The notes under the pieces were generated by a model, which saw only the letters and a program-made list of their open reading frames with translations, was not told where the DNA came from and searched no databases. Positions 11,477 to 35,498 of a stretch of DNA of 37,477 nucleotides are shown one piece after another (position 1 is the first letter of the stretch; each line of letters opens with the position of its first letter). Position numbers and translations under genes: made by a program. The stretch is from Hydrogenophaga sp. (GTDB lineage: Bacteria > Pseudomonadota > Gammaproteobacteria > Burkholderiales > Burkholderiaceae_C). The stretch lies in the NCBI RefSeq assembly GCF_028698005.1, contig NZ_JAQVEJ010000011.1:1-37477 (forward strand). Direction: 5' to 3'.

Positions 11477-12261
11477 CGGACGCGATGGGAGGAACGGGGT
11501 CGCAGCCGCCAATGGCCTCGCACAGCCGTCTGGAGGTGCGTGGCCTGCGCAAGTCCTATGGCAGCCGCCAGGTGGTCAAGGATGTGTCGCTGACGGTTGA
11601 CAAGGGCGAGGTGGTGGGCCTGCTCGGCCCCAATGGGGCCGGCAAGACGACGTCGTTCTACATGATCGTCGGCCTGCTGCGTGCCGATGGCGGCGAGATC
11701 CTGCTGGACGGCCGCCGGATCGAGCGCCTGCCCATCCACCACCGTGCGCGCCTGGGTCTGGGCTATCTGCCGCAGGAGGCCTCCATTTTCCGCAAGCTGA
11801 CGGTGCAGCAGAACGTGCGCGCCGTGCTGGAGTTGCAGAAGGGGCCCGACGGGCGCCGCCTGGCGGGCGCCGACATCGAGCGGCGCCTGGATGATCTGCT
11901 CAAGGAACTGCGGGTCGACCACCTGCGCGATTCGCCGGCACCGGCCCTCTCGGGTGGCGAGCGCCGGCGCGTGGAGATCGCGCGTGCGCTGGCCACGAAC
12001 CCGCGCTTCATCCTGCTGGACGAGCCCTTCGCGGGCATCGATCCGATCGCCGTGATCGAAATCCAGCAGATCATCGGTTTTCTCAAGAACCGTGGCATCG
12101 GTGTGCTCATCACCGACCACAACGTGCGCGAAACCCTGGGCATCTGCGACCACGCCTACATCATCAGCGATGGCCAGGTGCTGGCCAGCGGCACCACGGC
12201 CGAGATTGTCAACAACGCCGAGGTGCGCCGGGTCTATCTGGGCGAGCACTTCCGGATGTGA
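11473..12261 (+). CDS. lptB: Lipopolysaccharide export ATP-binding protein LptB
   Basis: This 262-residue ABC ATPase powers extraction of lipopolysaccharide from the inner membrane with LptF and LptG. Motifs are Walker [13 protein letters not shown]-loop [16 protein letters not shown], signature [15 protein letters not shown], Walker [14 protein letters not shown] and H-loop [11 protein letters not shown], all in the form typical of LptB. The GTG at 11473 overlaps the lptA TGA, so translation is coupled; an ATG at 11485 or 11512 is also possible and would remove a short non-conserved N-terminus. rpoN follows after a gap containing two repeat copies. Confidence 0.95.
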
Positions 12262-12283
12262 TGGTCTCCGCGCCCGCCATGTT

Positions 12284-12341
12284 GTGTACGTCGCTGCCCC
12301 CCGGGGGGGCTCGGCCTTGCTTGGGGCGGCCCGGCGCTGCG
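12284..12341 (+). repeat. 58-bp GC-rich intergenic repeat, copy 1
   Basis: This copy begins GTGTACGTCGCTGCCCCCCG and ends GGCCCGGCGCTGCG. It is identical to copy 2 at 12371-12428 except for one base (C versus T in the GGCTCGG/GGCTTGG segment). The core GCCCCCCGGGGGGC is palindromic. It lies in the lptB-rpoN gap. Confidence 0.85.
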
Positions 12342-12370
12342 CGCACGTATGCCCCCACGCTCGTCACTTC

Positions 12371-12428
12371 GTGTACGTCGCTGCCCCCCGGGGGGGCTTG
12401 GCCTTGCTTGGGGCGGCCCGGCGCTGCG
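12371..12428 (+). repeat. 58-bp GC-rich intergenic repeat, copy 2
   Basis: This is a direct repeat of 12284-12341 with a single mismatch; the repeat period is 87 bp and the spacer is 29 bp. It ends 8 bp before the rpoN start codon, so the transcript's ribosome-binding region may be partly formed by the repeat and its palindromic core. Confidence 0.85.
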
Positions 12429-12436
12429 GCCATCCG

Positions 12437-13990
12437 ATGAAACAGGGTCTGTCGCTGCGGGTATCGCAGCATCTGGCGCTGACACCCCAACTGCAGCAGT
12501 CGATCCGTCTGCTGCAGCTGTCCACGCTGGAAATGGCGCAGGAGGTCGAGCAGATGCTCGACGAGAACCCGTTCCTGGAGCGTGGCGACGAGCAGGCCGA
12601 GCGGGAGGCCTTCGGCCTGGATCAGCAGGACGCACCGGTGGCCACCGGTGAGCGGATTGCCGAGGTGGCTTCGTCGGCGGGCGAGGCCGAAGCCGCCGGG
12701 GGAGACGAGGTCGAGGCCAGCCTGGATGGCGGTGGGTCGATCGAGGAAAGTTGGGAGGGCGACGGCACGGTCGACGTCAGCCCGGACGACGCCGAATGGG
12801 GGGGCGATGCCCCGGCCCGGGGCGCCGGCGGGCAGGACGATGACGCCCCCACGGCGACCGAGCTGGCGAGCGCCACGGTCAGCCTGCAGGAACACCTGCA
12901 CGAGCAGGCGCGTTGCCTGCGGCTCACGCCCGAAGAGCAGGCGGCGCTGTACTTCCTGATCGAATCCCTCAACGAGGATGGCTACCTGGACGAACCCCTG
13001 GACGGGCTGGCGCGGGACTTCTGGTGCCAGATGTACCCGGGTCAGGGCGAACCGGACCTGGAGGCGCAGGAGGAAGCCCAGGCACACCTGCGGATGGCCC
13101 TGGGCTGGCTGCACAGCATGGAGCCGATCGGGGTGGGCGCGCGCGACCTGCGCGAATGCCTGAAGCTGCAGATCCTGGAGCTGCGCAACAGCCCCGAGGC
13201 GCGCGCGGCCCTGGCGCTGTGCGAGCAGCCGCTGGAGCTGATGGCCAAGCGCGATGTGCGCCGGCTGATGGCGGCGTGCGGGCTCGATGCCGAAGCGGTG
13301 CGCGCCGGCCTGGCGCTGATCAACCGTCTGGAGCCCAAGCCCGGGCGACGCTTTGCGGACGCCGAGCGCAACGTGATCGTGCCGGACGTGATCGTCACCC
13401 GTGCCGGGCGTGGCTTCAAGGTGCAGCTCAACCCGGATGTGATGCCGCGCCTGCGCGTGCAGGACACCTATGCCAATGCCATGCGGCAGGGCCGGGGCGA
13501 GGGCCACGCCGCCATGCAGCAGCGCCTGCAGGAGGCGCGCTGGTTCATCAAGAACATCCAGCAGCGCTTCGACACCATCCTGCGTGTCTCCAGCGCCATC
13601 GTCGAGCGCCAGCGCAACTTCTTCATGCATGGCGAGCTGGCCATGCGTCCGCTGGTCCTGCGCGAGATCGCCGACGAGCTGGGTCTGCACGAATCGACGA
13701 TCAGCCGCGTGACCACCGCCAAGTACATGGCCACACCCTTCGGTACCTACGAACTCAAGTACTTCTTCGGTTCCTCACTGGGGACCGAAACCGGTGGCAA
13801 TGCGTCGAGCACGGCGGTGCGTGCCTTGCTCAAGCAGTTCATCGCGGCCGAGGAACCGTCCAAGCCGCTGTCGGACAACCAGTTGTCCGACCTGCTCAAG
13901 GAGCAGGGCATCGAATGTGCCCGCCGCACCGTGGCCAAGTACCGCGAGGCGCTGCGCATCGCGCCGGCCAATCTGCGCAAGGCGCTGTAA
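12437..13990 (+). CDS. rpoN: RNA polymerase sigma-54 factor
   Basis: This 517-residue sigma factor directs RNA polymerase to -24/-12 promoters and needs an AAA+ activator. The N-terminal glutamine/leucine-rich activator-interacting region is clear (QHLALTPQLQQSIRLLQLST). An acidic region II follows (about residues 50-145), then the core-binding domain, a helix-turn-helix (REIADELGLHESTISRVTTA) and the C-terminal RpoN box ARRTVAKYREAL. The ATG at 12437 is chosen because it begins exactly at the conserved N-terminus. Its usual downstream neighbours (hpf/ptsN/hprK) are absent; a denitrification cluster follows. A sigma-54 promoter served by the linked activator NorR is found at 32008-32023. Confidence 0.96.
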   Translation: MKQGLSLRVSQHLALTPQLQQSIRLLQLSTLEMAQEVEQMLDENPFLERGDEQAEREAFGLDQQDAPVATGERIAEVASSAGEAEAAGGDEVEASLDGGGSIEESWEGDGTVDVSPDDAEWGGDAPARGAGGQDDDAPTATELASATVSLQEHLHEQARCLRLTPEEQAALYFLIESLNEDGYLDEPLDGLARDFWCQMYPGQGEPDLEAQEEAQAHLRMALGWLHSMEPIGVGARDLRECLKLQILELRNSPEARAALALCEQPLELMAKRDVRRLMAACGLDAEAVRAGLALINRLEPKPGRRFADAERNVIVPDVIVTRAGRGFKVQLNPDVMPRLRVQDTYANAMRQGRGEGHAAMQQRLQEARWFIKNIQQRFDTILRVSSAIVERQRNFFMHGELAMRPLVLREIADELGLHESTISRVTTAKYMATPFGTYELKYFFGSSLGTETGGNASSTAVRALLKQFIAAEEPSKPLSDNQLSDLLKEQGIECARRTVAKYREALRIAPANLRKAL

Positions 13991-27493: not shown

Positions 27494-29782
27494 TCAGCCG
27501 CGCGCCTGGCCGAGTGCCTGCCGGGTTGCCGTCTGGCCGGCGACGCGGCCACCGGCCAGACCGATCACCACCTGCCAGGCCAGGGCCACGGCGCCGATGA
27601 TGAACACGACGTCACCGAAGGTGCGCACCCAGCGCAGGGTCTGCAGCAGGGGCTGCTGCATGAAGGCCTCGCTGCGGGCGTACCACAGGCCTTCGCTGGC
27701 GCTGGCCATGAACTGGATGATGCCCACGGGCAGCAGGCTGGTGGCGATCATCAGCACCAGGCCACCGTTGAGGCCCCAGAAGGCGGTCTTCATCAGGCCT
27801 TCGCTGAAGGCGAACTGCGGGCGCACATAGCGCAGCACCAGGAGCGTGAAACCCAGCGCCAGGAAGCCGTACACCCCGAACAGCGCGGCGTGGGCGTGCA
27901 CGGGCGTGGTGTTCAGGCCCTGTACGTAGTACAGCGAGATGGGCGGGTTGATCATGAAGCCGAAGACGCCGGCGCCCAGCATGTTCCAGAAGGCCACGGC
28001 CACGAAGCACAGCAGGGGCCACTTCAGGTTGTCCATCCAGGGGGCGCGGGTCTTGAGGCGCCAGTTCTCCCAGGCTTCGTGGCCCAGCACGATCAGCGGC
28101 ACCACTTCCAGCGCGCTGAACGCGGCGCCCACGGCCATGACGGGCGTGGTGGTACCGGCGAAGTACAGGTGGTGGAAGGTGCCGGGGATGCCGCCGAGCA
28201 TGAACAGCGAGGCCGACGCCAGGCTGGCCGCGGTGGCCATCGGGCGCGAGACCAGGCCCATGCTGCTGAACACGAAGGCCAGCGCGGTGGTGGCGAAGAC
28301 TTCGAAGAAGCCCTCCACCCACAGGTGCACCACCCACCAGCGCCAGTACTCCATCACCGACAGGCTGGTGCGCTCGCCGTAGAACAGGCCCGCGCCGTAG
28401 AACAGGCCGATGGCGCCGACCGAGGCGGTCAGCAGGGCCAGCAGGTTCTTGTCCTCACCGTTGCGCCTGAGCAGCGCGGGCAGCACGGCGCGCAGCATCA
28501 GCACCAGCCACAGCAGGATGCCGACCCACTTGAGGATCTGCCACAGGCGCCCCAGGTCCACGTACTCGTAGCCCTGATGGCCGAGCCAGAAGTTCCACTC
28601 GGGCGGGAGCTTTTGCGCGATGGCCAGGTAGTTGCCCGCGAACGAGCCCACGCACACGGCCACCAGTGCCCAGAACAGCACGTCCACGCCGAGCTTCTGG
28701 AATTTCGGGTCCTTGCCACCGTTGATGATGGGCCCGAGGAACAGGCCCACGGCCAGGAAGCCGGTGGCGATCCAGAACAGCGCGGCCTGGATGTGCCAGG
28801 TCCGCGTGAGCGCATACGGGAACCACTGCGACACGTCGATGCCGTAGAAGTGCTGGCCTTCCACCGTGTAGTGCGCGGTGAAGCCGCCCAGGAAGACCTG
28901 GAACACGAACAGGGCCACCACCAGGAACAGGTACTTGCCCAGGCTGCGCTGCGAGGGCGTGAGACCGACGAGCGACAGCGGATCGCGCGCGGGCGCGGCG
29001 GGCAGGGGCTCGTCGTGGTCACGCAGGAAGGCCCAGCCCCACACGAGGAAGCCGATGCCGGCCAGCAGAATGACCACGCTGGCGATCGACCAGACGATGT
29101 TCTCGCCGCTGGGCTGGTTGTCGATCAGCGGTTCGTGCGGCCAGTTGTTGGTGTAGGTCACGTCCGAGCCCGGGCGCTCGGTCGCGGCGGCCCAGGCGGT
29201 CCAGAAGAAGAATTGCGTCATGGCCTCGCGCCGCTCGGCGCTGGGCAGCGTGTTCTCCTTCATGGCGAAGCTCTGGCGGCTCTGGCGCAGCGCGGGTGCG
29301 TCCGAGAAGAGCTGGTCGTAGTAGGTTGCCGTCCGCGCGATGGCCTGCGCGCGGCGCTCGCTCACCACCAGCGTGTTGCTGTCGTCCACGCCGCTGGCGC
29401 GGTACTCGGCCTTGAGCTCGGCGCGCAGCGCGCCCTGGGCGCCGGCGTCCAGCTCGGCGTAGGGCTTGCCGTGGCGTTCCTGCGCGGCCAGGTCGAGCCA
29501 GGCGGTCAGCTCGCGGTGCAGCCAGTCGGCCGTCCAGTCCGGCGCCTGGTAGGCACCGTGGCCCCAGATGGAGCCCAGCTGCATGCCACCCACCGACTGC
29601 CAGGCGGTCTGGCCGTCGATGATCTGCTCACCCGTGAACAGGGCCTTGCCCCCGGTGGTGACCACCTTGTCGGGCATGGGCGGCGCCGAGCGGTAGACCT
29701 CGGCGCCGAAATAGCCCAGCAGCGAGAACATGACGATGCACACGCCGATCAGCGTGAACCAGTATTTCTTGTAGACACCCAT
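27494..29782 (-). CDS. norB: Quinol-dependent nitric oxide reductase (qNorB)
   Basis: This 762-residue membrane enzyme reduces two NO to N2O using quinol. The length and an N-terminal extension of about 200 residues after the first helix (LFTGEQIIDGQTAWQSVGGM, GSIWGHGAYQAPDWTADWLH) mark the quinol-oxidising single-subunit form rather than the cytochrome c-linked NorCB. Metal ligands are visible: the low-spin heme His in RTWHIQ, His and Glu in WWVVHLWVEGFFE (near residue 486), His-His in GTFHHLYFAG (near 535), and the HAHAALFGVYG heme pair (near 628). The ATG at 29782 follows AGGAG. It is 15 bp downstream of ric, last in the nirK-ric-norB operon, and has no separate promoter visible. Confidence 0.96.
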   Translation of the reverse strand: MGVYKKYWFTLIGVCIVMFSLLGYFGAEVYRSAPPMPDKVVTTGGKALFTGEQIIDGQTAWQSVGGMQLGSIWGHGAYQAPDWTADWLHRELTAWLDLAAQERHGKPYAELDAGAQGALRAELKAEYRASGVDDSNTLVVSERRAQAIARTATYYDQLFSDAPALRQSRQSFAMKENTLPSAERREAMTQFFFWTAWAAATERPGSDVTYTNNWPHEPLIDNQPSGENIVWSIASVVILLAGIGFLVWGWAFLRDHDEPLPAAPARDPLSLVGLTPSQRSLGKYLFLVVALFVFQVFLGGFTAHYTVEGQHFYGIDVSQWFPYALTRTWHIQAALFWIATGFLAVGLFLGPIINGGKDPKFQKLGVDVLFWALVAVCVGSFAGNYLAIAQKLPPEWNFWLGHQGYEYVDLGRLWQILKWVGILLWLVLMLRAVLPALLRRNGEDKNLLALLTASVGAIGLFYGAGLFYGERTSLSVMEYWRWWVVHLWVEGFFEVFATTALAFVFSSMGLVSRPMATAASLASASLFMLGGIPGTFHHLYFAGTTTPVMAVGAAFSALEVVPLIVLGHEAWENWRLKTRAPWMDNLKWPLLCFVAVAFWNMLGAGVFGFMINPPISLYYVQGLNTTPVHAHAALFGVYGFLALGFTLLVLRYVRPQFAFSEGLMKTAFWGLNGGLVLMIATSLLPVGIIQFMASASEGLWYARSEAFMQQPLLQTLRWVRTFGDVVFIIGAVALAWQVVIGLAGGRVAGQTATRQALGQARG

Positions 29783-29797: not shown

Positions 29798-30472
29798 TCA
29801 GTGCGTGGCGGCCGGCGCGAAGCGCTCGAACAGCACGTTGTTTTCCAGATGGATATGGGTCATGAGGTCCTCGCGGAAGGTGCGCAGGCCCGTGTAGAGC
29901 GCGCGCCAGGTGGTGCAGGCGGCCGGCGGTGGTGTGATGTCATTCGTCAACCCTTCCAGGCGGCGCAGCTCGGTCCCGTGCTCGTTGTGCTCGGCGCGCA
30001 TCACCCCGATGGGCATGCCGGCCATGCGGCCGTGGCCGCGCGCGATGAGGGGAAACAGGATCTGCTCCTCCTTGCGCATGTGGCTTTCCAGTTCCTGCGC
30101 CATGGCCTCCAGGTGGTTCGCCAGGCCATGCGGGCAGTCCTCGCGCTCGCCGTGCACCTGCTCCACCCGGCGCGCCAGGCGGATCAGTTCGGGCAACTGC
30201 TCGCGGTGTACCGCGTGATAGCGCTCGAGGATGTGGTCCACCAGCTCGGTGTCGGAGGCCCCTTCCCACGAGACGGGCTGCTCGGCGGCGCGCTGCGCAA
30301 GCGCGTGCAGCGCCTCCACCAGCGGTTCGGGGTCGATGCCGGCCTCGGTGGCGGCGGTGCGCAGTGTGCGGTTGCCGGCGCAGCAGAAGTCGAAATGGTG
30401 GGCGTCGAAGACGCGCGTGGCGCCGGGGATGCGCCGGGCCAGCTGGCCCAGCGATTGGTCCAGGATGTTCAT
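29798..30472 (-). CDS. Iron-sulfur cluster repair di-iron protein (Ric; YtfE/ScdA/DnrN family)
   Basis: This 224-residue protein has an N-terminal DUF542/ScdA_N domain (residues about 3-58) with the diagnostic FDFCCAGNRTLRTAA, and a hemerythrin-like di-iron domain (about 75-220) with the expected His/Glu sets in LPELIRL, ESHMRKEEQILFP, RAEHNEHGTE and THIHLENNVLFERF. The family repairs Fe-S clusters damaged by NO and oxidants and can release iron or convert NO. The start at 30472 follows AAGGAGA. It lies between nirK (32 bp upstream) and norB (15 bp downstream), so it should be made whenever NO is made. DnrN-type genes are known near NO-response genes in several denitrifiers. Confidence 0.93.
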   Translation of the reverse strand: MNILDQSLGQLARRIPGATRVFDAHHFDFCCAGNRTLRTAATEAGIDPEPLVEALHALAQRAAEQPVSWEGASDTELVDHILERYHAVHREQLPELIRLARRVEQVHGEREDCPHGLANHLEAMAQELESHMRKEEQILFPLIARGHGRMAGMPIGVMRAEHNEHGTELRRLEGLTNDITPPPAACTTWRALYTGLRTFREDLMTHIHLENNVLFERFAPAATH

Positions 30473-30504: not shown

Positions 30505-31971
30505 TCAGAGGCGGCCGGGCTTGTAGACGCCGGGCACGCCCTCGCCGGCGACTTCGAGCACACCCACCGCGCCCTTGCCGGTGCGCGAGAGGGCGTGATC
30601 GACCAGCAGGTAGCTGCCGGGGTGCTCGACCTTGAATTCGACGATCGTGGCGCCGCCCGGTGCCACGAGGGTGGTCTGCACGCCGGTCTTGTAGGCGTTG
30701 AGCGCGGCCTCGCTGTAGACCTTGTCGAAGATCTCGCCGATCACGTGGAACGACGAGACCTTGTTCGGGCCGCCGACGCCGAAGTAGATGCGCACCGTCT
30801 CGCCCACCTGGGCCTGCAGCTTGTGCGTCTTGCTCAGGGCGCCGACGGCGCCGTTGAAGACGTAGTAGTCGGGCAGCTCGTTGGCCATCTTGTCCAGATC
30901 GGGTTCCTGGTGGCCCTTGGCGCCGAAGGGGCGGTGCGTGTACATGTCGCCCTGCATCACGTAGTACTCGCGGTCCACCTTGGCCAGGCCTTCCTCGGGC
31001 TCGATGAGGATCATTCCGTACATGCCGGCGGCGATGTGTTGCGGCACCAGCGGCGTGGCGCAGTGGTAGACGTACAGGCCGGGGTTCAGTGCCTTGAAGG
31101 TGATGGTCTTTTCCTGGCCGGGCGCGACCTGGGTGTGCTCGCCGCCGCCGTGCCCGCCGGTGACCGCGTGCAGGTCGATCGAGTGGATGGCCTTGCTCTC
31201 GCGGGCATTGGCCAGCGTCAGCTCGATGGTGTCGCCCACGCGGGCGCGCAGCATCGGCCCCGGCACCTGGCGGTCGAAGGTCCAGTAGGTGAAGGTGGTG
31301 CCGTCGTCGAGCTTGCCGGGCAACTCCACCGTTTCCATGCGCAGCTTCTGGACCTGGGGCGCCCGCGCGCCGATGGCGGCCGGCACTTTCGTCGGGTCGG
31401 CAGCGATGCTGACGGCCGCCGGGTCCGCGCCACGCTGCGGCACGGCGGCGGGGGTGTACAGCGCCAGCGCGGCCTGGGTGGACGGGCTGGCGGCCGGGGC
31501 CGCGTCGCTGTTCTGGGCCGGGGCTTGGCCCGTCACACGCAGCAGGCCTTCCATGCCGATCTGGCGGTGGCCCGGCACCGAGCAGAAATAGGTGAATTCG
31601 CCCGGCTGCGTGACCGTGAAGCGCACACGGACCTTGCCCGTGCCGGCGCTGAACTTGGGCGAGGCCACGTTCAGGTCGCTGATGACGAAGTCGTGTTCGG
31701 CGCCTTCGCCGCTGTCGAGCTCGACCTCGATCGTGTCGCCGACCCTGGCGTCGATGGTGGGGTTGACCTGGCCCTTGTCGTCCACATAGACCATCCTGCC
31801 GTCGACAATGTTGGTGTGCAGCTTGATGTGCCGGGCGGTGGCCGGGGCGCTGGTTGCGGCGGCGGTCATGTGGGCGGCACCGGGTTCGTGTTGGGCGAGT
31901 GCGGGCAGTGCCAGCATGCACAGTGCCGCGGCGATCGGCATGAGGCGGCGTGCGGGCCTTCGGGTGATCAT
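30505..31971 (-). CDS. nirK: Copper nitrite reductase with extra N-terminal cupredoxin domain (NirK/AniA type)
   Basis: This 488-residue periplasmic enzyme reduces nitrite to NO. It has a signal peptide (LMPIAAALCMLALPALAQ), an additional N-terminal cupredoxin domain (about 45-147) with a full type-1 copper set (His93, Cys130, His135, Met140 in FTYFCSVPGHRQIGM), an Ala/Pro-rich linker (about 150-205) and the two-domain NirK core. Core type-1 ligands are His263, Cys304, His312 and Met317; type-2 ligands are His268, His303 and His459; catalytic Asp266 and His409 are present. The CATPLVPQHIAAGMYG loop resembles AniA-like class II enzymes. An N-terminally tethered cupredoxin is known in Hyphomicrobium denitrificans NirK. 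The start follows AGGAG. A sigma-54 promoter lies 37 bp upstream. Confidence 0.95.
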   Translation of the reverse strand: MITRRPARRLMPIAAALCMLALPALAQHEPGAAHMTAAATSAPATARHIKLHTNIVDGRMVYVDDKGQVNPTIDARVGDTIEVELDSGEGAEHDFVISDLNVASPKFSAGTGKVRVRFTVTQPGEFTYFCSVPGHRQIGMEGLLRVTGQAPAQNSDAAPAASPSTQAALALYTPAAVPQRGADPAAVSIAADPTKVPAAIGARAPQVQKLRMETVELPGKLDDGTTFTYWTFDRQVPGPMLRARVGDTIELTLANARESKAIHSIDLHAVTGGHGGGEHTQVAPGQEKTITFKALNPGLYVYHCATPLVPQHIAAGMYGMILIEPEEGLAKVDREYYVMQGDMYTHRPFGAKGHQEPDLDKMANELPDYYVFNGAVGALSKTHKLQAQVGETVRIYFGVGGPNKVSSFHVIGEIFDKVYSEAALNAYKTGVQTTLVAPGGATIVEFKVEHPGSYLLVDHALSRTGKGAVGVLEVAGEGVPGVYKPGRL

Positions 31972-32007
31972 GAGTTTTCTCCTGCGGTGGTTGAATGCAC
32001 AGCCTTA

Positions 32008-32023
32008 TGCGAAGGGCGTGCCA
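32008..32023 (-). promoter_or_regulatory. Sigma-54 (-24/-12) promoter of nirK-ric-norB
   Basis: On the minus strand the sequence reads TGGCACGCCCTTCGCA. It has a perfect -24 element TGGCACG and a -12 element TCGC with one mismatch to TTGC, and obeys the GG-N10-GC spacing rule. Transcription would begin near 31997, about 25 bp before the nirK start codon. Confidence 0.75.
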
Positions 32024-32038
32024 GGGGAAAACCCTAGG

Positions 32039-32051
32039 AAAATCAATGACC
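32039..32051. promoter_or_regulatory. Possible degenerate third NorR site
   Basis: A 13-bp window in phase with the two NorR boxes (25-26 bp spacing) keeps only the ACC half of GGT-N7-ACC. E. coli norVW has three NorR sites, which is why this position was inspected. Weak. Confidence 0.25.
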
Positions 32052-32064
32052 TGAAAACCAGTAA

Positions 32065-32077
32065 GGTCAAAAATACC
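32065..32077. promoter_or_regulatory. NorR binding site 1 (GGT-N7-ACC)
   Basis: GGTCAAAAATACC matches the GGT-N7-ACC consensus reported for NorR in Ralstonia eutropha. It lies about 70 bp upstream of the predicted nirK transcription start, a normal enhancer distance for a sigma-54 activator. Confidence 0.7.
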
Positions 32078-32089
32078 CGTTTTGATGAG

Positions 32090-32102
32090 GGTGTAAAATA
32101 CC
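32090..32102. promoter_or_regulatory. NorR binding site 2 (GGT-N7-ACC)
   Basis: GGTGTAAAATACC is a second perfect GGT-N7-ACC box, 25 bp from site 1 and therefore close to the same face of the helix after about 2.4 turns. It ends 4 bp before the norR start codon, so NorR binding could also repress its own gene. Confidence 0.7.
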
Positions 32103-32106
32103 CAAC

Positions 32107-33675
32107 ATGGTCAAAAACACCTCGTTCGGTGGCGATGGTCGCCTCGTGCTCGATCTGCTGGTCGCCGATCTGGCGGTGGATCTGCCAACAGCCATCCGGC
32201 TGCAGCGCCTGGTGGACACCTTGCGCGTGCATTTCGGCTGCGGCGCCGTGGCCCTGCTGCAACTGGAGGGGGAATACCTCAAGCCATTGGCCACGGCCGG
32301 TCTGGTTCGCGACGCGCTCGGCCGGCGCTTTTCCATGGCGCAGCACCCCCGGCTGGCCACCATCCTGGCACGGCGCGACATCACCTGCTTTCACCACGAC
32401 AGCGCGCTGCCCGACCCGTACGACGGTCTGCTGGACGAACTCGAAGGCGCGTCGCTGCCGGTGCACGACTGCATGGGCATCAGCCTGTGGGTGGACGGGC
32501 AGCCCTGGGGCGTGCTGACCCTGGACGCCCTGGCGGTGGGCACCTTCGACGCCCGCGCGCAGCAGCGCCTGCAGACGCTGCTGCCGCTGGTGGAGGCCAC
32601 CGTGCGGCTGGCGCGCCTGGAGGGCGAGCTGCGCACGCTGCGGCTGCACCACGGCGGTGGCGGCGCGTCCATGGCCGAGGATGCCGAGGTCCTGGGGCAG
32701 AGCGAGGGCATTGCCCGCCTGCTGCACGAGCTGCAGGTGGTCGCCGACACCGATCTGCCGGTGCTGCTGCTGGGCGAGACCGGCGTCGGCAAGGAACTGT
32801 TCGCGCACCGCCTGCACGCGCTTTCGCGGCGCCGGGCCAAACCGCTGGTGCACGTCAACTGTGCGGCGCTGCCCGAGTCGCTGGCCGAGAGCGAGCTGTT
32901 CGGTCATGTGCGTGGTGCCTTCTCGGGCGCCGTCGGCGACCGCCCGGGCCGCTTCGAGGCGGCCGAGGGGGGCACGCTGTTTCTCGACGAGGTGGGGGAA
33001 CTGTCGCTGGCCGTGCAGGCCAAGCTGTTGCGCACGCTGCAGAACGGCGAGATCCAGCGCCTGGGGGCCGACCGCCCGCGTCGTGTGGACGTGCGCGTGA
33101 TCGCCGCCACCAACCGCAGCCTGCGCGAACACGTGCGCGACGGCAGCTTTCGGGCCGATCTGTACCACCGCCTGTCGGTCTATCCGCTGCCGATTCCGCC
33201 GTTGCGCGAGCGTGGCCACGACGTGCTGCTGCTGGCCGGGCGCTTTCTCGAACTCAACCGCGCCCGCCTGGGGCTGCGCAGCCTGCGCCTGAGCGCCGAG
33301 GCGGAAGAGGCACTGCGGCGCTACCACTGGCCCGGCAACGTGCGCGAGCTCGAGCACGTCATCAGCCGCGCGGCGCTCAAGGCCGTGAGCCGCGGCGCCT
33401 CGCGCGCCGACATCGTGACGCTTGGCCCCGAACTGCTCGATCTGGAGGAAACGGCGCCGGTGCCGGTCACCCCTTCCTCCTCGCCCCTGCCGGTGGTGGC
33501 AGCGGCGGCGGCGCCGGCGGGTACCCTGCGGGATCAGGTGGCGGCGTTCGAGCGCCAGGCGATCCGCGCCGCGCTGGACGTGCACGGTGGCAACTGGGCG
33601 CAGGCCGCCCGCGCCCTGGGCCTGGACGCGAGCAACCTGCACAAGCTGGCGCGCCGGCTCCAGCTCAAGGCCTGA
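32107..33675 (+). CDS. norR: NO-sensing sigma-54-dependent activator NorR
   Basis: This 522-residue activator has a GAF sensor (about 20-165), an AAA+ domain (about 193-425) and a C-terminal Fis-type helix-turn-helix (about 475-520, [20 protein letters not shown]). The non-heme iron ligand set described for E. coli NorR is matched by Asp103, Asp106 (DPYD), His120, Cys122 (HDC) and Asp140. AAA+ motifs are Walker A GETGVGKE (223-230), the sigma-54 contact loop GAFSGA (270-275; usual form GAFTGA) and Walker B LFLDE (291-295). When NO binds the iron, the GAF domain releases the AAA+ domain to activate sigma-54 promoters. It is divergent from nirK, and the gap holds two NorR boxes and a sigma-54 promoter. 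Confidence 0.94.
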
Positions 33676-33702: not shown

Positions 33703-35058
33703 ATGAACGATCTTTCCCTGTTCCTGCCCTGCGCGGCAGGCGTTGAGTCCTACCTTGCGGCCGAAGTGCGGCGCATCACCGGCGTGGACGCGGTGGCGCC
33801 CGCGCGCGCGGGCGTCGCGGTGCGGGCGTCCTGGCGCGATGCGCTCAAGCTCAACCTGCACAGCCGACTGGCCCAGCGGGTGCTGGTGCAGCTGTGGCGC
33901 GGCCCCTACCGCAGCGAGGCCGACCTGTACGACGCGGCCAAGGAGGTGGCCTGGGAGATCTGGTTCACACCCGCGCAGACCATCAAGGTCGAGGTGACGG
34001 CGCAGCACAGCCCGCTCAAGAGCCTGAACTTCGCGGCGCTCAAGATCAAGGACGCGGTCTGCGACCGCTTCCGCGAGCGGCGCGGCGAGCGCCCGAGCGT
34101 GAACACGAACTGGCCCGATGTGCGCCTGTACGCGCACCTGACCGCCGACACGCTGAGCCTGTCCATCGACACCTCGGGCGAGCCGCTGTTCAAGCGCGGC
34201 TGGCGCGAGGACAAGGGTGACGCGCCGCTGAAGGAGACGCTGGCGGCGGCCATGATCGCCGCCACCGGCTGGGATGCGGCCGCCGACATGGCGCTGGACG
34301 AGATTGCGCCGCTGTACGACCCGTGCTGCGGCAGCGGTACCGTGGCCATCGAGGCGGCACAGATCGCGCTGCGCGTGGCGCCCGGCCTGCAGCGGCGCTT
34401 CGCATTCGAAAAGCTCCTGCCGTTCCAGCCGCACGTCTGGCAGGCACTGCGCCAGGAGGCGGAGCAGCAGCGGCGCGAATGGCCCGCCGGGCACCGGCCC
34501 ATCGTGTTCGGCTCCGACGTGGCCTTCCGCATGGTTGACTTCGCGCAGCGCAACGCCGAGCGTGCGGGCGTGGCCCACGCGCTGGAGCTGCGCGGCGGTG
34601 ACGCGCTGCAGCGCATGCCGCCCAGCGAGCGGCCCGGCGTGCTGCTGCTGAATCCGCCTTATGGCGAGCGCATTGCGGCGGCCGGTGTGGCCGGCCGCAA
34701 TGCGCGCGAGCGGGCCTCCGAGCGCGCGGGCGCACGCGCGCCGCGCACCTTCACCGTGGGCGCGGCCGCGCCGGCGCCCGTGGAACGCATGGGCCGCGAA
34801 AGCGCGCAGATGAGCGATGGCAGTGCCGATGCCGAGGGCAGCGATTTCTTCGCCCGGCTCGCCACGCACTGGAAGAACCATTACGCGGGCTGGACGGCCT
34901 GGCTGCTCACGCCGGACCTGAAGCTGCCCGGCAAGATGCGCTTCAAGGAGTCGCGCCGCGTGCCAATGTGGAACGGCCCCATCGAATGCCGCCTGTTCCG
35001 CTTCGACCTGACGCCGCGTCGCGCGCCCGCAGCGGCCGGCGGGAACGAAGGGCGCTGA
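33703..35058 (+). CDS. THUMP-domain class I RNA methyltransferase (RlmL/Trm14-like)
   Basis: This 451-residue protein has an N-terminal ferredoxin-like/THUMP RNA-binding region (about 1-160, beginning LFLPCAAGVESYLAAEVRR and including DLYDAAKEVAWEIWF) and a Rossmann methyltransferase domain with the SAM loop YDPCCGSGTVAIEAA and the catalytic NPPYGERI at about 317. In E. coli the equivalent RlmL half modifies G2445 of 23S rRNA to m2G. A low-complexity Ala/Arg insertion of about 60 residues (324-385) interrupts the region after NPPY. The C-terminal end (FKESRRVPMWNGPIECRLFRFDL) is family-like. It begins 27 bp after norR but is unrelated in function, so the denitrification cluster probably ends before it. 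Confidence 0.87.
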   Translation: MNDLSLFLPCAAGVESYLAAEVRRITGVDAVAPARAGVAVRASWRDALKLNLHSRLAQRVLVQLWRGPYRSEADLYDAAKEVAWEIWFTPAQTIKVEVTAQHSPLKSLNFAALKIKDAVCDRFRERRGERPSVNTNWPDVRLYAHLTADTLSLSIDTSGEPLFKRGWREDKGDAPLKETLAAAMIAATGWDAAADMALDEIAPLYDPCCGSGTVAIEAAQIALRVAPGLQRRFAFEKLLPFQPHVWQALRQEAEQQRREWPAGHRPIVFGSDVAFRMVDFAQRNAERAGVAHALELRGGDALQRMPPSERPGVLLLNPPYGERIAAAGVAGRNARERASERAGARAPRTFTVGAAAPAPVERMGRESAQMSDGSADAEGSDFFARLATHWKNHYAGWTAWLLTPDLKLPGKMRFKESRRVPMWNGPIECRLFRFDLTPRRAPAAAGGNEGR

Positions 35059-35060
35059 AT

Positions 35061-35494
35061 ATGGTGGAGAGCACGCCGCTGGTCATCGACACCAACGTCA
35101 TCCTCGACATGTACGTGTACGAGGACCCGGCGGTGGTGGCGCTGCGCGAGTGGCTCGAAAGCGGGCAGGGGCCCTGGCACGCTACGGCCGCCATGCGCGA
35201 GGAGCTGCGACGCGTGCTGGACTATCCGCACATCGCACGGCGCCTGGCACAGCGTGGCTTCGCCGCCGACGAGGTGTTGGTCCGGTTCGACCGCCACGCC
35301 CGTCCCGCCGAGCCCGCGCCGCGTGCCGTCTATGTCTGCAAGGACCCGGATGACCAGAAGTTCATCGACCTGGCCGTCGTGCTGGGTGCGTGTCTGGTGA
35401 GCAAGGACAAGGCCGTGCTGCGCATGACCGGACGGCTGGCCCGGCTGGGTGTGCGCGTGCAGCGGCAATGGACTGGCGCGGCTACACTGGCCGC

Positions 35495-35498
<4 letters not shown>
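35061..35498 (+). CDS. PIN-domain protein, putative ribonuclease
   Basis: This 145-residue protein is a single PIN domain of the family annotated as putative toxin-antitoxin toxin component. Acidic metal-binding residues are present: Asp10 in VIDTNVILD, Glu in [12 protein letters not shown], and Asp in [11 protein letters not shown]. The late motif SKDKAVLRM is typical. Such proteins can act as magnesium-dependent RNases. No antitoxin-like gene adjoins it: upstream 2 bp away is the RNA methyltransferase and downstream, overlapping by 4 bp, is a YecA-like protein. A role in RNA processing together with these neighbours is possible, but inferred. Confidence 0.82.

Follow-up and report, generated by a model that had tools for sequence, protein, structure and literature searches.

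A predicted NorR/sigma-54 promoter in front of nirK-ric-norB in Hydrogenophaga sp.

The stretch of DNA analyzed here (the window; 37,477 nt, one contig of a 3.17-Mb assembly of Hydrogenophaga sp. in 281 contigs) carries norR divergently oriented to nirK, which is followed by ric and norB. Very probably, this arrangement is a classical NorR promoter of the Burkholderiales that has gained nirK as its first gene, with norR on one side and a single, NO-driven nirK-ric-norB transcript on the other. NorR/sigma-54 control of nirK-ric-norB, as proposed in a first-pass annotation of the window, is backed by the gene identities, by the anatomy of the predicted promoter, and by the conservation of its box array in all 21 loci in which norR adjoins nirK (21/21).

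Genes and predicted promoter elements of the norR-nirK region

The product of nirK (30505..31971, minus strand) scored above the cut-off of TIGR02376 (337.5 versus 296.3 bits) and possesses an extra N-terminal cupredoxin domain. In the alignment with the solved enzymes 6tfd and 2dv6, both of its cupredoxin-type domains were covered and its copper-binding motifs, as judged by eye, were kept. By sequence, NirK is a copper nitrite reductase, and reduction of nitrite to NO is its predicted activity. The adjoining gene, ric (also ytfE or norA; 29798..30472, minus strand), encodes a di-iron protein (NF008221; 322.4 bits, cut-off 254), and norB (27494..29782, minus strand) encodes a single-subunit (quinol-type) NO reductase, in which a cytochrome c-like N terminus is fused to a COX1-type core (PF22085, 234.5 bits; PF00115, 207.2 bits); as NorB gave no NCBIfam match, this assignment is by Pfam only. 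On the opposite strand, norR (32107..33675, plus strand) encodes the sigma-54-dependent NO sensor (NF003451; 711.5 bits, cut-off 476), composed of a GAF (PF01590), an AAA+ (PF00158), and a Fis-type helix-turn-helix domain (PF02954). The gene for sigma-54, rpoN, is present in the same window as a long ORF (12092..13990, plus strand; PF00309, PF04963, and PF04552), the Pfam domains of which begin only at residue 120. The window also contains a nar cluster (named from the translations), NarX/Q-like and NarL-like proteins scoring below the NCBIfam cut-offs, and, at 34968-35498, a PIN-family gene (31.1 bits, NCBIfam cut-off 29.15) labeled as a possible toxin of a toxin–antitoxin pair. In Xenophilus (L009), the norB-ric-nirK-norR block sits beside rpoN; in the window, rpoN and norB are separated by the nar cluster, as if it had been inserted; rlm-like and rpoN genes flank the Xenophilus block on the same two sides as in the window, within 1.3 kb and without a nar cluster.

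Between the ATG codons of nirK (31971, minus strand) and norR (32107, plus strand) lie 135 bp. The first-pass annotation had noticed two perfect NorR boxes (GGT-N7-ACC) spaced 25 bp, and their coordinates are right (box B, 32090..32102; box C, 32065..32077), but the array has three boxes, the equally perfect box A (GGTCAAAAACACC; 32109..32121) having been overlooked. Box A is 19 bp from box B, overlaps the annotated start of norR, and was present in 16/16 named nirK relatives with norR. If the norR ATG at 32107 is right, box A is part of the coding sequence, and NorR could cover the start of its own gene; this start is unsure, the alignments of most relatives beginning at residues 13-18. Facing nirK, a sigma-54 -24/-12 element, TGGCACG-N4-TCGCA (TGGCACGCCCTTCGCA; 32008..32023, minus strand), was found 37 bp from the ATG, precisely where it had been placed before; its -12 part reads TCGC (consensus TTGC). 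Between the boxes and the -24 part, an IHF-like site (AATCAATGACCTG; 32041..32053, plus strand) deviates from WATCAAN4TTR by one mismatch, and only 0.01 of the shuffles scored as well. A NorR promoter is expected to have a -24/-12 element preceded by three GT-N7-AC enhancers, and this layout is present in the window. That the gap is a NorR/sigma-54 promoter facing nirK is well supported by the sequence, and activation depending on NO and on sigma-54 is predicted.

The distances between the three genes downstream, 32 bp (nirK-ric) and 15 bp (ric-norB), were confirmed as first reported; in the 20 relatives with norR adjoining nirK they amount to up to 124 and 26 bp, respectively (with the partial ric alignment, the nirK-ric distance of L011 was not measurable). 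No terminator was found between nirK, ric, and norB on the minus strand. Likewise, a simple sigma-70 scan of nirK-ric-norB on their own strand gave no promoter match, which agrees with the earlier remark that no internal promoter is visible.

Short motifs can arise by chance, and single GGT-N7-ACC boxes are indeed not rare in the GC-rich window (18, with 7.9 expected). The exact 16-mer of the sigma-54 element occurs once in the genome, but 16 other places match it with one mismatch, which makes it weak evidence by itself. In 100 dinucleotide shuffles, the three-box array at this spacing, with up to three mismatches allowed, was matched 0.02 times on average; the window had two matches, one perfect and the other overlapping it out of register with three mismatches. 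A perfect box pair spaced 25 bp is found at a single place in the 3.17-Mb genome (13 more places with one mismatch; 8 per strand for a backwards control pattern), which hints at a single NorR target, albeit for the 25-bp spacing only. Within the 110 bp downstream of the boxes, the sigma-54 score of the window was reached in 0/200 shuffles. Based on the genome-wide pair count, the shuffles, and the array statistics, and with the spacing being fixed over 65 triple-box loci (see below), the reading of the promoter motifs as chance matches was rejected as extremely improbable.

The promoter with and without nirK

A scan for NirK yielded 556 confirmed relatives, 80 of which were examined as named loci. 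At 16 of these 80, norR (at least 65% identity) is divergent before nirK, which is followed by ric and norB; they belong to Xenophilus azovorans, five Comamonas, nine Janthinobacterium, and one Pseudomonadota MAG. The strict triple box was present in 16/16 of them, and nowhere in the available DNA (some contigs being short) of the other 64 nirK loci. When the 17 regions, including that of the window, were aligned, the half-sites of the boxes were invariant, and GG-N10-GC of the -24/-12 element was present in 17/17. Among 399 genomes sampled from the family, 27 contain a NirK homologue (E <= 1e-60), five of which, the window included, have the triple box before nirK. A NirK homologue was also found in 33 of 399 genomes sampled from the order, and the array, in the 30 of these 33 nirK loci examined, only at the window's own. 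As a point against the proposed reading, four members of the window's genus in the samples were listed with neither norR nor nirK. Irrespective of their origin (the window, 16 named, and four from the family sample), all 21 norR-nirK loci have the triple box, and they are distributed over two NCBI families, Comamonadaceae and Oxalobacteraceae. The first-pass annotation had suggested looking for the motif pair upstream of nirK orthologues; besides the window, 20 genomes in which norR is divergent to nirK have the array there. A different arrangement was observed at L277 (G782; 79% identity), where nirK is directly followed by norB in the absence of norR, with a hydrolase-like gene upstream; this locus contained neither a triple box nor an FNR box within one mismatch, and its 5′ leader resembles, by eye, that of Janthinobacterium.

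NorR itself (E <= 1e-100) was found in 76/399 family genomes and 24/399 order genomes, and the upstream side was examined at all 97 distinct NorR places besides that of the window. NorR shares 50-56% identity with that of the window at 46 of the 97 places (63% in one case); these are the hmp-type loci, with a flavohaemoglobin gene on the far side. At the remaining 51, the identity is 58-75%. The strict array was present in 47 of the 51 non-hmp norR regions (the exceptions being L182, L185, L193, and L262) and in one hmp-type locus, L247. The genes facing norR in the 51 non-hmp regions are norB (18), ric-norB (14), ric with no norB found (6), nirK-ric-norB (4), and nine others, namely, six hemerythrin-type genes, one norCB-like pair, and two cases with no gene named (L208 and L266). 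nirK is an optional gene behind this promoter. The hemerythrin-type cargo (L196, L199, L200, L202, L203, and L205) is a small gene, behind which lies a gene that resembles, by eye, those of anaerobic ribonucleotide reductases; the small gene was recognized in L196 by PF01814, in L202 by similarity to L196, and in the others by eye. At L209 (G776), the promoter precedes a pair encoding a cytochrome c and a COX1-type protein, read as the cytochrome c-dependent NO reductase norCB.

The 65 triple-box loci (the window, the 16 named ones, the 47 non-hmp norR regions, and hmp-type L247) share one layout. Their boxes are spaced 18-21 and 24-26 bp, and the best sigma-54 match begins 39-42 nt past box C in 61/65. 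At L016, the best sigma-54 score lies elsewhere, yet GG-N10-GC is found at the usual place; in several Comamonas loci, the sigma-54 match scores only 8-9 of 12, a level that many shuffles also reach. WATCAAN4TTR is matched with up to two mismatches in 58/65 loci (12.9 expected by shuffles), and an IHF-like site lies 10-11 nt past box C in 54/65.

A decayed first gene is seen at L189 (G738), where a stretch resembling the 5′ part of nirK (NirK residues 50-87 only; 80% identity over 98 bp to L010) is sandwiched between the NorR boxes and ric. With the promoter intact and ric-norB still present, nirK was lost there and the promoter kept; as in the window, narL- and narX-like genes lie beyond norB. 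In a quick NorR tree with long branches (72 of 114 rows, 42 of the 46 hmp-type rows left out), the 21 nirK-type rows required five changes, compared with a mean of 18.4 when shuffled. One clade of 23 rows comprises 20 nirK rows plus L179, L182, and L189, which are devoid of nirK; the window NorR falls into a wider clade of 33 rows without a firm place. As the promoter elsewhere mostly occurs without nirK, and in view of the remnant at L189, nirK looks like a gained, and sometimes lost, first gene of a classical NorR norAB operon. The same facts, the commonness of the nirK-less promoter (before norB, ric-norB, ric, or hemerythrin-type genes) and the loss at L189, would also suit a promoter that serves norR-ric-norB and transcribes nirK as a passenger not functionally tied to it. 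However, nirK is promoter-proximal and intact in 21 loci from two NCBI families, and the metal-site motifs of NirK are, by eye, kept, which makes a mere passenger improbable.

Other regulatory inputs and known NorR systems

Even with a working NorR/sigma-54 promoter, nirK could be governed mainly by FNR, NarL, or a DNR-type protein, or by a sigma-70 promoter in the box region, with NorR acting as a booster. Seven Crp/Fnr-type proteins encoded in the genome scored over the cut-off, and the presence of an FNR-like protein (by eye) makes other inputs possible. Furthermore, a weak sigma-70 match towards nirK lies within the box region (9/12; minus strand, 32097-32070; shuffles average 0.4), and an FNR-like sequence with one mismatch overlaps the IHF-like site in eight Janthinobacterium loci. 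At nirK of the window, however, there is no FNR-like box within two mismatches, and the column profile of the conserved site favours IHF over FNR: the YAA half of the IHF site is found in 53/65 loci, the second half-site of FNR, within one mismatch, in 10/65. FNR or DNR acting at the window promoter was rejected on account of the missing box and of the conserved TTGAT element, which fits IHF better. NsrR was rejected as well, the single Rrf2 protein over the cut-off having, by eye, an IscR-like Cys pattern. Close nirK genes without adjoining norR have an FNR/DNR-like box (at most two mismatches) in 16/20 cases (1.6 expected; this set excludes L042, L076, and L277), but 15/21 norR-linked loci also reach such a box at two mismatches (1.2 expected), mostly owing to the TTGAT within the IHF-like site, so that the two groups do not split cleanly. 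Overall, dominance of another regulator over NorR at nirK is considered unlikely. Regarding other denitrification genes, the genome gave no match for nosZ with TIGR04244 (6/14 controls gave matches, none over the cut-off) and none for NirS with PF02239 (matches in 2/14 controls); the negative result of a first NosZ model, PF18764, is void, as it matched in no control genome.

NorR contacts sigma-54 through its GAFTGA motif, and H111 belongs to its iron site. The window NorR reads GAFSGA, as do NorR from Cupriavidus necator and the other aligned NorRs from triple-box loci; GAFTGA is present in E. coli NorR and in the single hmp-type row aligned. Five further iron-site residues, R75, D96, D99, C113, and D131, are named in the available part of PMC4601167. 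All six positions are conserved in the window NorR (R82, D103, D106, H120, C122, and D140).

The norR-norA2B2 region on pHG1 of C. necator (Ralstonia eutropha) H16 resembles that of the window in its divergent norR, three boxes (19/26 bp), a sigma-54 element with TCGC, and ric/ytfE followed by an NO reductase gene, but its operon lacks nirK; this regulator is known to act on norAB (PMC1274295 and PMC9045102, in the excerpts at hand). Similarly, E. coli norR-norVW combines a divergent norR with a sigma-54 element and three GT-N7-AC sites (21/24 bp), but drives a flavorubredoxin NO reductase and has a NorR with GAFTGA instead of GAFSGA; IHF bending and three essential enhancers are described for norVW (accessible part of PMC4601167). 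In Ralstonia solanacearum norAR, norA depends on NorR, whereas norB and hmpX were unchanged in a norR deletion; norA being the only protein-coding gene of the NorR regulon, the nirK homologue aniA is outside (all according to the part of PMC9045102 available). An NO-responsive regulator governing the NO producer is also found where nirK is under NnrR, DNR, or NsrR, but these are Crp/Fnr or Rrf2 regulators acting without sigma-54; such control of nirK, and that of denitrification genes by NnrR/DNR, is covered in the accessible sections of PMC1274295, and the NO-sensing NnrR is required for nirK of R. sphaeroides (PMC8139620, in part). The NorR targets given in those sections of PMC1274295 are norVW, norB, hmp, hcp, dnrN, and nnrS, with nirK absent, and nirK, unlike nirS, has no genomic linkage pattern in the excerpt of PMC4770552. 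In a literature search with subscription journals outside its scope and sources available in part, no description of nirK under NorR was recognized; one may be in print.

Predicted feedback at the nirK operon and its meaning

We infer that the nirK operon is co-transcribed, depends on NO and sigma-54, and feeds back on itself. NorR would sit on all three boxes upstream of nirK, NO at the iron of its GAF domain would free the AAA+ domain, and bending by IHF would allow NorR to open this sigma-54 promoter. NirK (the NO producer), Ric/NorA (an NO-binding di-iron protein), and NorB (the NO consumer) would then all come from a single transcript. As NO would raise NirK, and the same mRNA NorB, the operon would amplify itself while nitrite lasts, and NO would be held near a level fixed by the NirK:NorB ratio. 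The starter NO could come from any source, be it the side reaction of NarG (PMC8139620, part available), neighbours, basal NirK, or Ric itself, because nitrite reduction to NO is reported for YtfE (PMC9052748, part available). The same excerpt of PMC9052748 has NorA attenuating NorR, which would be a built-in damper on the nirK operon.

The first-pass annotation had expected a switch-like start to denitrification. In a toy model of the NorR feedback (invented parameters, ranges chosen by hand, Ric left out), 1617/2000 parameter sets were multistable when nirK alone was under NorR, versus 495/2000 when nirK and norB shared one mRNA; in a smaller scan with norB on the same mRNA, 4/150 were. With norB co-transcribed, the model thus mostly had one steady state, contrary to that expectation, and switch-like dynamics as a necessary consequence was rejected, even though the counts depend on the chosen ranges and the model, its parameters being invented, decides nothing. 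Self-amplification with a clamp is tentatively favoured over a hard switch. The further claim that NO would switch on its own synthesis fits the wiring, but not as an unusual logic, because NnrR and DNR do likewise elsewhere; only the regulator differs.

More tentatively, and with doubt prevailing, respiratory nitrite reduction may have been transferred to the NO-stress regulon (NorR/sigma-54). More NO would then be licensed by NO, and not by lack of oxygen or by nitrate; producer, buffer, and sink would be made in a fixed ratio from one message; nitrite would be sensed via NO; and the NO level would be set by the enzyme ratio, not by the amount of expression.

The components are familiar; what looks new is their wiring, with nirK as an unusual cargo of a NorR-norAB system. 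NorR is viewed as a regulator of detoxification; with nirK among its targets, the step committing cells to NO, and hence to N2O, would come under the control of sigma-54 and NO. If NorR drives nirK, NO released by neighbours is predicted to set off the conversion of nitrite to N2O. Being present in named Comamonas, Janthinobacterium, and Xenophilus isolates, the locus is testable, and the natural series of cargoes under a common promoter design (norB, ric-norB, nirK-ric-norB, and a decayed nirK) suits asking why producer and sink would share an mRNA.
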